Of a stretch of DNA of 34,811 nucleotides, positions 3,370 to 31,660 are shown piece after piece (position 1 is the stretch's first letter; the number at the start of each line of letters is the position of its first letter). A program made the position numbers and the translations under genes. Under the pieces are notes generated by a model, which worked only from the letters and a program-made list of their open reading frames with translations, did no database searches and was not told the origin of the DNA. Source of the stretch: an uncultured Bacteroidota bacterium. GTDB lineage: Bacteria > Bacteroidota > Bacteroidia > AKYH767-A > JABDAW01. The DNA is taken from contig CAIMUP010000032.1 of assembly GCA_903844645.1 (NCBI GenBank), forward strand, positions 1 to 34,811, in the 5' to 3' direction.

Positions 3370-3593
3370 CTGGGGATTGAAAATCCCCAGTGAAGGATTT
3401 GCAATCCCCAGTCGTGGCGTAGTAAGCCCCAGTTGTGGCGTAGTAAGCCCCAGTTGTGGCGTAGTAAGCCCCAGTTGTGGCGTAGCAAGCCCCAGTTGTG
3501 GCGTAGTAATCCCCAGTTGTGGCGTAGTAATCCCCAGTTGTGGCGTAGCAAGCCTCCATCGTGAATTCCAGAGCCTTATTTAGAGGAATGGAA
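3370..3593. repeat. 21-bp-period intergenic array B with conserved tail
   Basis: Nine units of exactly 21 bases occupy 3370-3558. The first is a palindrome: arms CTGGGGATT and AATCCCCAG around a 3-base loop. The second is a decayed version, and units 3-9 share GTGGCGTAG followed by YAAKCCCCAG. The array is followed by a 32-base tail (3562-3593) that recurs, inverted and with 29 of 32 bases identical, at 11100-11131 beside a shorter array of the same palindromic unit. Open frames through the array on both strands simply follow from a period divisible by three. The region 3159-3673 has no gene; the array lies 81-304 bases beyond the stop of hflX. Confidence 0.9.
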
Positions 3594-6889: not shown

Positions 6890-7078
6890 TTTTGACAAAA
6901 CAGCAACTTGTTTCGACAAAACACGAAGCTGGTTTTCCTAAAAAGCTTATTGGTTTTCCTAAACAGTTTCGTGGTTTTCCTAAACAGTTTCGTGGTTCTT
7001 TAAAACAGTTTCGTGATTCTTCAAAACAGTTTCATGATTCAACAAAAAAGCTTCGTGGTTTATTAAAACAGGTTTCGA
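6890..7078. repeat. 21-bp-period intergenic array C
   Basis: Nine consecutive 21-base units, all in register. The first two contain TTTTGACAAAAC/TTTCGACAAAAC, the next ones GTTTTCCTAAACAGTTTC, and the last decay toward GTTTATTAAAACAGG. A and T runs within each unit are partly complementary. The array lies in the 453-base gap 6735-7187 between the YdjM-type gene and sufA; the remaining sequence shows only the upstream hairpin and the sufA promoter. Confidence 0.88.
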
Positions 7079-9200: not shown

Positions 9201-9457
9201 GTGTAAAGGTCATAAAACGGGATCTCTTTTTTGAAAAGGAGATCTCTTTTTTGAAAAGGAAGTCTCTTTTTTGAAAAGGAGATCTCTTTTTTGAAAAGGA
9301 AGTCTCTTTTTTGAAAAGGAAGTCTCTTTTTTGAAAAGGAAGTCTCTTTTTTGAAAAGGAAGTCTCTTTTTTGAAAAGGAAATCTCTTTTTTGAAAAGGA
9401 GATCTCTTTTTTGAAAAGGAAGTCTCGTTTCATAAAACGGAGTCTCGTTTCTGTTTT
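9201..9457. repeat. 20-bp-period intergenic array D
   Basis: Ten near-identical 20-base units (9221-9420) of the form RRTCTCTTTTTTGAAAAGGA, in which CTCTTTT and AAAAGGAG can pair. On both sides stand edge units containing CATAAAACGG (9211-9220 and 9431-9440), followed by GATCTC or AGTCTC. It is the only array with a 20- rather than 21-base unit. It lies in the 610-base gap 8970-9579, together with the sufB hairpin, its terminator and the promoter of the next gene. Confidence 0.93.
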
Positions 9458-18649: not shown

Positions 18650-18660
18650 ATGCTCGGACA

Positions 18661-18807
18661 GTCTTGTAAGGATAGAAGACCGTCTTCTAAGGATAGAAGA
18701 CGGTCTTCTAAGGATAGAGGACGGTCTTCTAAGGATAGAGGACGGTCTTGTAAGGATAGAAGACCGTCCTGTAAGGATAGAAGACTGTCTTGTAAGGATA
18801 AACTGTC
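18661..18807. repeat. 21-bp-period intergenic array E
   Basis: Seven 21-base units in register. Each has GTCTTC or GTCTTG, then TAAGGATA, then GAAGAC or GAGGAC, so most units are small hairpins with a 6-bp stem and 8-base loop. The last unit (18787-18807) is degenerate. It lies in the 523-base gap 18517-19039; the stretch 18808-19039 after it holds only a weak AGCCGA/TCGGCT inverted repeat. The nearest gene end is that of the gene at 19040. Confidence 0.9.
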
Positions 18808-24932: not shown

Positions 24933-25166
24933 ACCATAAGATAGTTTCCCTACGGTATGGCGAGTGCTCGCGGATGCGTCAGGAAACTTCCTGAAGGTAT
25001 GGCGAGCGTTCGCGGGTGCGTCAGGAAACTTCCTGAAGGTCTGGCGAGTGTTCGCGGGTGCGTCAGGAAACTTCCTGAAGGTCTGGCGAGCGTTCGCGGA
25101 TGCGTCAGGAAACTTCCTGAAGGTCTGGCGAGCGTTCGCGGGTGCATCAGGAAACTATCTTATGGT
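24933..25166. repeat. 42-bp (2 x 21) array F bracketed by 17-bp inverted repeats
   Basis: Five copies of a 42-base unit (24954-25163), each made of two 21-base halves with different palindromes: GCGAG..CTCGC-type in one half, CAGGAAACTTCCTG in the other. The whole array is enclosed by a perfect 17-base inverted repeat, ACCATAAGATAGTTTCC (24933-24949) and its reverse complement (25150-25166); the right copy is a diverged version of the second half-unit. It is the only array lying between two divergent gene starts. Gap 24738-25325 holds nothing else but promoters. Confidence 0.93.
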
Positions 25167-25254: not shown

Positions 25255-25325
25255 CAACTATTCTTGGTTCTTAATAATTAATGTAATTTAGCCGCCTTAG
25301 AAATAATTAATAAAACAAGATAAAT

Positions 25326-26315
25326 ATGAAATATCCAACGCAGAGACAGTACCGCATTTTCGTTTTAACGTTCATGCACTTCAATAATTTTTTCATCAGT
25401 TCGACCGTCGGCAACTGGATCATGATGGCGCGAATCAGCACCTACATGGATAACAATCTCAAGGAAGCTGGGCTTTCCGATCCCGCCATGCAGGCACTTT
25501 ATATTATCTTCCATCCGCAGCATCTTGCCTACATGTTGTTATTCAACAAATGGAAGGTTACGATCGGCGTTCAGCATGGTAAAGTTTTTACGAAAGATGA
25601 ATTGGTAGATCAGTTAGAACACACCAATATCGCGAAGTGGGATTTGGAAACACAAAAAGTTTTTGAGAAGGGAACGGAGGAGTACGAAACCATCTGGCAG
25701 GGAGGTCATGCGGTGATGACTGAAGGGCATATTGATGATCGGATTGCTGCAATATTAACAAAGGCTGATTTGATGGAGCCTTATCCGGGATTGGCTGCTC
25801 TTCGTACAATAATTACTGCATTTCATACCCTGATTTTAGGAGCTGAAGGACTCGTGTCCGGTAAAAAAGGTGCTCATGGAAGTGCTGCCGGAAATGTAGA
25901 AACAGGAAGAAAAGTAAATGGAAAAGCGATGCATCAGATATTTGGCGATTTACTAAAAGCATATAGCGGCAACGACACCGAATTGGAACGCTATGTCGAT
26001 GTCGAAGAAATTCAGAAAAAGGCAGAGAAAAATCCCCTTGTAAGTGCTATTTTGAAGGCTTCGATAGATAAGGTCGCGAGCCGTACCCTGCTGGCAACTG
26101 ACCACTTCACCATTACGAATGATGGTACTGTTGCATTGAAGTTTTATTTGATAAAAAACCTCGGCGATATTCCAGGGATTTTCGTTACCGTACCAGCCGG
26201 ACAAACGCTGACTTTTCTCGCATCGGCATTAGGGAATATCACCTTCCGGTACATCATGTGCGAGAACGATTCTTTGACCACCAACGGTCATTATTCTTTC
26301 TTGTTTGATGAATAA
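25326..26315 (+). CDS. Unrecognised 329-residue protein
   Basis: No family recognised. No signal peptide or clear membrane helix. Residues 1-150 look helical and rich in aromatic residues and Met (FVLTFMHFNNFF, MQALYIIFHPQHLAYMLLF, then HGKVFTKDELVDQLEHT). The middle has a Gly/Ala/Ser-rich turn (SGKKGAHGSAAGNVETG). The last 80 residues look like a beta-sandwich: TITNDGTVALKFYL, then GIFVTVPAGQTLTFLASALG, ending in NGHYSFLFDE. Transcribed alone, with array F upstream and a bidirectional terminator downstream. Confidence 0.8.
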   Translation: MKYPTQRQYRIFVLTFMHFNNFFISSTVGNWIMMARISTYMDNNLKEAGLSDPAMQALYIIFHPQHLAYMLLFNKWKVTIGVQHGKVFTKDELVDQLEHTNIAKWDLETQKVFEKGTEEYETIWQGGHAVMTEGHIDDRIAAILTKADLMEPYPGLAALRTIITAFHTLILGAEGLVSGKKGAHGSAAGNVETGRKVNGKAMHQIFGDLLKAYSGNDTELERYVDVEEIQKKAEKNPLVSAILKASIDKVASRTLLATDHFTITNDGTVALKFYLIKNLGDIPGIFVTVPAGQTLTFLASALGNITFRYIMCENDSLTTNGHYSFLFDE

Positions 26316-27791: not shown

Positions 27792-27971
27792 CTATTTTTT
27801 CTTTGCTGCTGCCTTCTTTGCAGGAGCTTTCTTTGCCGCTGCTTTCTTTGCAGGGGCTGCTTTCTTTGCAGGAGCTTTCTTAGCTGCCGCTTTTTTCGCA
27901 GGAGCTTTCTTAGCTGCTGGTTTTTTCGCTGCTGCTTTTTTTGCAGGAGCTTTCTTTTTAGCTGTTGCCAT
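27792..27971 (-). CDS. Histone-H1-like Lys/Ala/Pro-rich protein
   Basis: A 59-residue very basic protein, almost entirely repeats of AKKAPAKKAAAKK beginning MATAKKKAPAKK and ending AAAKKK. Such tails match the C-terminal part of eukaryotic H1 and bacterial AlgP/HctB-like proteins; they bind DNA by charge and compact it. Here the tail is the whole protein. The stop codon is TAG at 27792-27794. A terminator follows and a promoter (TTG-N23-TAAATTTG) precedes it, so it is a real gene. The repeated coding sequence is prone to length change. Confidence 0.88.
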   Translation of the reverse strand: MATAKKKAPAKKAAAKKPAAKKAPAKKAAAKKAPAKKAAPAKKAAAKKAPAKKAAAKKK

Positions 27972-31130: not shown

Positions 31131-31413
31131 TTTGGAGATAAATCATAAAATTCCGGACATAGAAACCGATTTTTTGGAGATAAGGCTCGGGATTTTGGAG
31201 ATTGTATGCCGACATTTGGAGATTCGGACGAATAGTTTGGAGTTTCATACGAGTTATTCTTTCCGGAAATTCATCCCCGTCTCCAAATCTTTGATTAATG
31301 TCTCCAAACGACCGATCTGAATCTCCAAACTTCGGAGCTAAAACTCCAAATAATCCCCAAACGACTCCAAATAGTTGATATAAAGCTCCAAAAGGTTGAT
31401 ATAAAACTCCAAA
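31131..31413. repeat. 21-bp-phased array G with internal reversal of the core
   Basis: TTTGGAG begins at 31131, 31173, 31194, 31215 and 31236 (a decayed TCCGGAC fills 31152). After a centre holding TTCCGGAA (31261-31268) the reverse complement CTCCAAA begins at 31281, 31302, 31323, 31344, 31365, 31386 and 31407. All steps are 21 bases (or 42). The 14 bases between cores differ from unit to unit. In RNA each left core could pair with a right core. The gap 31030-31660 also contains a possible promoter (TTG at 31537, TACTTTTA at 31556-31563); no gene was accepted there. Confidence 0.92.
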
Positions 31414-31660
31414 CTCTTAGACGGAAAATCCGCATTATGCGCTGTAAATGAGGCTATTTGAAAACGGAGGTAAAATTGGGGGGTCAAGGATTCGTTTTTT
31501 CCTGCTTTTGGCTAATGAAATTCCCCTTAAAAAACATTGTTTTGCCAAGTTTTTATACTTTTACCGCGTTGAACAAAAAGGGAGTTCCTGAAAATCCCTC
31601 AAAGAGTAAGGCGCGGAAACCGAAAAGCGAAGAGAGTAGGCACGGAATAAATATTTAATA

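Follow-up and report, generated by a model that had tools for sequence, protein, structure and literature searches.

A phased, bounded 42-bp repeat array accompanies an uncharacterized multi-copy protein family in Bacteroidota and may represent its DNA counterpart

As judged by comparison of sequences within and between genomes, the tandem array located upstream of an uncharacterized gene in an uncultured Bacteroidota bacterium (GenBank assembly GCA_903844645.1; contig CAIMUP010000032.1, or C32, whose whole 34,811-nt stretch is referred to as the window) travels with this gene and with the protein family to which the gene belongs. The same comparison brings out the bounded, fixed length of the array, its helical phasing and the existence of cognate copies dispersed over the genome. 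We consider it an evenly balanced proposition that gene and array form one module, the array being the cis-acting DNA component on which the adjacent protein would assemble as a phased oligomer; binding of the protein to the DNA, autoregulation, action at orphan arrays and array copying are what we infer beyond the comparison itself.

The initial annotation described a 42-bp array made of two alternating palindromic half-units and bracketed by 17-bp inverted repeats. The array, 234 bases long, is real, as TRF detected a period of 42 with 4.8 copies and 94% matches in its core (Table 1). Its ends are likewise an exact inverted repeat: the 17-mer ACCATAAGATAGTTTCC matches once at each end in opposite orientations, was not found elsewhere in the window with up to 3 mismatches allowed, and produced two matches in 0/100 shuffles. 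The two alternating palindromes are present, but they are not separate properties, since tandem repetition of a single dyad-symmetric 42-bp unit places dyad centers 21 bp apart; in the window unit 28 of the 42 positions are self-complementary vs 19.8 in shuffles. This spacing equals two turns of B-DNA. The right end, previously regarded as a diverged half-unit, is indeed an altered one, the same alteration being found at both ends: each end half-unit is a modified GGAA-RY-TTCC palindrome in which the outer half reads AAGATA, and such altered end palindromes recur in two other arrays of the genome. When folded as single-stranded DNA, the array strand forms one long hairpin (z = -10.9), and the RNA fold is also strong (z = -12.7). 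The array is not CRISPR-like, its units being contiguous and near-identical with no unique spacers between the repeats, and no intrinsic-terminator-like site was found within it.

Table 1. Coordinates of the array, its parts and the partner gene in the window
Feature	Position	Strand	Description
Whole array	24933..25166	.	Bounded quasi-palindrome of 42-bp units with a dyad every 21 bp
Periodic core	24954..25156	.	4.8 copies of 42 bp
Left end	24933..24949	+	ACCATAAGATAGTTTCC, altered half-unit; AAGATA shared with the arrays of C37 and C54
Right end	25150..25166	-	Left-end sequence repeated exactly in inverted orientation
Promoter-like site of the partner gene (presumed)	25264..25291	+	TTG at 25264, TAATTTAG at 25284-25291
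Partner gene	25326..26315	+	329-aa protein of an uncharacterized multi-copy family

Search of the whole 3.84 Mb draft revealed two related arrays (C37:35095-35326 and C54:31519-31742), and one further related array was found in the sister species G002. Both half-units are common to all four arrays and the AAGATA outer half to the three arrays of this genome; the ends of the G002 array are related to it in a changed form. The four arrays align without gaps at 66-80% identity, and the distance from outer motif to outer motif is exactly 224 bp in all of them, in two species. Such constancy of length despite the divergence argues for a bounded element and not for random expansion, in agreement with the earlier proposal based on the mirror-image ends, and the genome-wide search for the end sequence suggested at that time located the end motif flanking the C37 and C54 arrays. 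Presence/absence variation was also encountered: the C37 array lies upstream of a lemA-like gene (the name LemA being read from sequence), and in the sister species G001, with a LemA of 93% identity, this place is without an array. Thus, both further copies of the ends and a difference in occupancy among relatives exist. No target-site duplication was visible on inspection of the flanks and no clean empty site was recognized, the intergenic DNA there being diverged, including the lemA site in comparison with G001. Free variation in copy number was not seen in the four homologous arrays (224 bp in 4/4, copies and not strains being compared); lengths vary more in other array families, mostly about 200-300 bp. 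End-specific inverted repeats are not general for the arrays of the genome, as they were only weakly above the control among the 100 arrays tested. A coding repeat was ruled out, because the differences among the four arrays show no mod-3 or codon-position bias and no reading frame is open in all four; together with the fixed length, this indicates that the array does not code and is not a minisatellite of freely varying length. As a separate observation, sampled 42-bp units contain a slight excess of stop-free frames (3.9 vs 3.1 of 6 in dinucleotide-preserving shuffles).

The protein encoded by the partner gene has no match in Pfam, NCBIfam or PHROGs and no credible sequence match in PDB; no recognized DNA-binding domain was detected in these four resources, and no match to a ParB or Rep family in the first three. 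In a Pfam-type scan of 17 family members the matches were weak and scattered, none of them being to Y1_Tnp, and the family exhibits few invariant residues and no transposase domain. The full-length structure model was unusable (pLDDT 41), and the C-terminal 83 residues were predicted to form a beta-sandwich (pLDDT 74) matching many beta-sandwiches, the best match being the Anabaena sensory rhodopsin transducer (Z 7.6, rmsd 2.7 over 74 residues); this likeness lies within the search background, tied with unrelated matches, and was discarded. The family was not found on plasmids, and a RAYT, plasmid or phage origin received no support. TAnnTTTG promoter-like sites, according to the Bacteroidota consensus, occur between the array and the ATG in many family members, which makes it probable that transcription begins downstream of the array. 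In the window the corresponding site, which we take to be promoter-like from this consensus, is found within a block that the G002 module shares from about 25280 onward.

With its 12 relatives the 329-aa protein makes up a set of 13 members in this genome, and a 42-bp array was found upstream in 12/12 assessable ones; in samples of three genomes of the genus, an upstream array of 42-bp period accompanied 18/18 assessable members, two others at contig ends having been left out of the count. The distance from array to gene, measured from the stop-to-stop ORF, was 44-351 bp, and in one truncated member the array overlapped the 5' extension of the ORF. Three distant members, on C44, C141 and C76, each have an upstream array too. 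In the sample, a 5' array was present at 9/9 family ORFs vs 13/399 other ORFs (Fisher p 6e-13). A class-wide search detected the family in 23/395 Bacteroidia genomes, with a patchy distribution and usually in several copies, and it was absent from the listed genomes of other families in its own order. Of 28 homologous loci in other Bacteroidia, 19 have a distinct array just upstream, its period being 42 bp except at one locus with 41 bp; some of the remaining loci displayed degenerate or weak 42-bp periodicity, and others were contig-cut, partial or arrayless.

The unit sequence is each gene's own, yet the array sequence is common to several close orthologs. Array similarity correlated with protein identity (Spearman 0.42, p 4e-7, for pairs that are not independent), and two paralogs 77% identical had arrays with no detectable overall similarity, so any cognate code would need to evolve rapidly. 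Dyad symmetry of the gene-linked units was elevated (mean z 2.3; 19/38 at p<0.05); strict palindromy of every unit was rejected, as about half of these units are not significant. The homology between the window module and that of G002 begins at the outer end of the array, includes the promoter block and the gene, and ends there. The neighboring genes differ, which rules out an orthologous site and shows the G002 copy to be this module at another, non-syntenic location.

According to the reading we favor, the partner of the array would be this neighboring family of ~325-aa proteins, each member with its own 42-bp array upstream. The array would act as double-stranded DNA, its units of two or four helical turns presenting symmetric sites on one face of the helix, as is suggested by the dyad symmetry, the fixed length, the strict phasing at two turns in DNA that does not code, and the linkage to the protein family. 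By itself or together with a partner, the adjacent protein would assemble on the cognate array as a phased oligomer; it may control its own promoter just downstream, an autoregulation suggested by the position of the array upstream of that promoter, and it may also occupy one to a few orphan copies elsewhere.

Orphan arrays of this kind are common: most gene-linked arrays of this genome have homologous ones elsewhere in it, for instance next to the genes for NuoD, NuoH, NuoL, Rho, an HPPD-like dioxygenase and a LemA-like protein. For orphans of the window family and of sister families the context varies, from 3' of nuoL to upstream of lemA and rho. Directly 3' of nuoL, both this genome and G001 possess a 42-bp array, the two being of different array families, and the G001 orphan is 92% identical to an array linked to one of the family genes in G001; relatives in the order have there, in the place of the array, a NuoM-like gene (named by sequence). 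The array upstream of rho is common to this genome and G002 (L155 / L189), and it lies between divergent genes and is built of two halves in opposite orientations. The nuo genes are scattered over contigs here, with arrays beside nuoD, nuoH and nuoL (L059:10473-10706; L170 downstream of nuoL), and in relatives of the order nuoL still adjoins its downstream gene; arrays may accompany the break-up of the nuo operon.

The orphans bring forward the main rival explanation, which we rate as unlikely but worth serious consideration, namely a selfish REP/RAYT-like module that copies itself and moves, the orphans being its non-autonomous offspring mobilized by the family protein or by another enzyme. 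It would account for the homologous orphans that most gene-linked arrays have in the same genome, for the non-syntenic G002 module with homology ending at the outer end of the array and at the end of the gene, for the patchy multi-copy distribution over the class and for the presence/absence of the array at lemA. However, the family protein has few invariant residues and no transposase domain, the single Y1_Tnp match of the genome (on C138) has no array nearby, and no target duplication was seen. Moreover, the copies are old (66-83% identity), the rho array is common to two species, and transposition does not need strict two-turn phasing.

The 21-bp phasing is a property of the genome as a whole. 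Genome statistics were obtained from 536 kb (about 0.54 Mb) of sampled stretches with a crude ORF caller and with TRF, which misses degenerate arrays, and the relatives compared are draft genomes. The sample contained 119 arrays of period 21n, that is 2.2 per 10 kb or ~1 per 4.5 kb, occupying 4.2% of the sequence; among 109 sampled arrays of at least 100 bp the smallest period was 21 or 42 in 103 (strictly in 102, with 82 of period 21 and 20 of period 42, longer multiples standing outside this count). The exceptions include two 20-bp arrays, and a rare one of this sort is located in the window at 9223-9430 (TCTCTTTTTTGAAAAGGAAG, 10.4 copies). Other intergenic 21-bp-phased arrays of the window, with unrelated units, were detected at 1-318, 3406-3554, 6930-7077, 18657-18800 and 31302-31413, several having dispersed relatives (e.g., 3406-3554 with L067:18038-18288). 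Many contigs of the draft start or stop inside arrays (e.g., L056:1-155, L057:1-287, L071:1-350 and L074:1-407); since arrays thus break the assembly, their number is probably underestimated. In relatives of the order 21-bp arrays are rare, as estimated from small samples. Two further features of the window lie outside these arrays: a match to the Rfam DUF805b cis-regulatory RNA at 31610-31642 (36.9 bits, gathering 35.6), and 15-bp/48-bp repeats at 27798-27957, the minus strand of which reads as a lysine/alanine/proline-rich sequence resembling a histone H1-like tail.

Such abundance, along with the foldability of the whole array into one hairpin, could be expected if the arrays were a replication by-product, made and homogenized by slippage and fold-back template switching and functionless, with ends that corrected each other; template-switch correction would indeed yield exact mirror ends. 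We regard this explanation as improbable in view of the constant 224 bp in four diverged copies, the exclusive 21/42 period and the specific association of 42-bp arrays with a single protein family in different bacterial families. An even less probable role at the RNA level or as an insulator, the array being transcribed into hairpins or separating divergent units as a terminator, mRNA stabilizer or supercoiling barrier, agrees with the strong RNA fold, with the location between divergent genes and with the arrays that immediately follow nuoL in two species, but is countered by the lack of an intrinsic-terminator-like site in the array, by the position of the family arrays upstream of a likely promoter and by the exact 21.0-bp period, which RNA hairpins do not demand.

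The favored reading, assembly of the adjacent protein on its array, may extend to a second uncharacterized family of ~300-aa proteins, of which 12 members occur in this genome (L157-L168, e.g., C17:5011-5949 and C4:6846-7748), 11 of the 12 with a 21-bp array 24-250 bp downstream. Homology between the two families is weak and unproven (hhalign probability 9%, E 0.0035, in the C-terminal part). With slightly less than even confidence, we propose an undescribed Bacteroidota class of gene-array systems that comprises at least two families with no clear relation (one with 42-bp arrays upstream, the other with 21-bp arrays downstream), whose members would assemble on their own phased arrays, with hundreds more arrays genome-wide, and which would form a sequence-diversified network, either chromosome-organizing or selfish. 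It looks like a gene-plus-DNA-array system with no earlier description: nothing matching was found in the mostly open-access literature searched on 21-bp or intergenic tandem repeats in Bacteroidetes, so an earlier description is possible. The genome-wide repeat pattern is tied to specific uncharacterized protein families conserved across several families of Bacteroidia. If the proteins bind the arrays, they would make up a new modular system of DNA-protein recognition, each genome supplying many natural cognate pairs, and one could test directly why phased repeats are maintained between the genes of bacteria. If the system is selfish instead, it would be a repeat-spreading one with no recognized transposase.

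Among known systems, the REP/REPIN elements with their RAYT (TnpA-REP) proteins are hairpin-forming extragenic palindromes with a gene-linked set, dispersed matches and several gene-repeat families per genome (PMC3116915). Here too the repeats are palindromic and extragenic, with dispersed copies matching a gene-linked one. In contrast to RAYT, the partner protein is not a recognizable Y1/HUH (PF01797-type) transposase, and instead of REP singlets or doublets we observe arrays with about ten dyads, phased with the helix at 21/42 bp. Like MITEs, the array described here is of defined length, has exact inverted repeats as its termini and exists in dispersed copies with presence/absence variation; unlike them, it has a phased tandem interior and a tie to a protein family, and no transposase or target duplication was found. 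The centromere sopC of the F plasmid consists of 43-bp tandem repeats with inverted repeats. By analogy, iterons and plasmid centromeres resemble the modules described here in having tandem dyad units, phased with the helix at roughly two or four turns, next to a gene whose protein is the putative binder; they differ in that our proteins have no Rep/ParB match, the family was not found on plasmids, and a single draft genome harbors many paralogous modules, every one with a unit sequence of its own, as well as dispersed orphans. Finally, the arrays are tandem repeats in intergenic DNA, as are VNTRs and minisatellites, but are distinguished from these by one strict genome-wide period, a constant length in the homologous arrays compared and linkage to a protein family.
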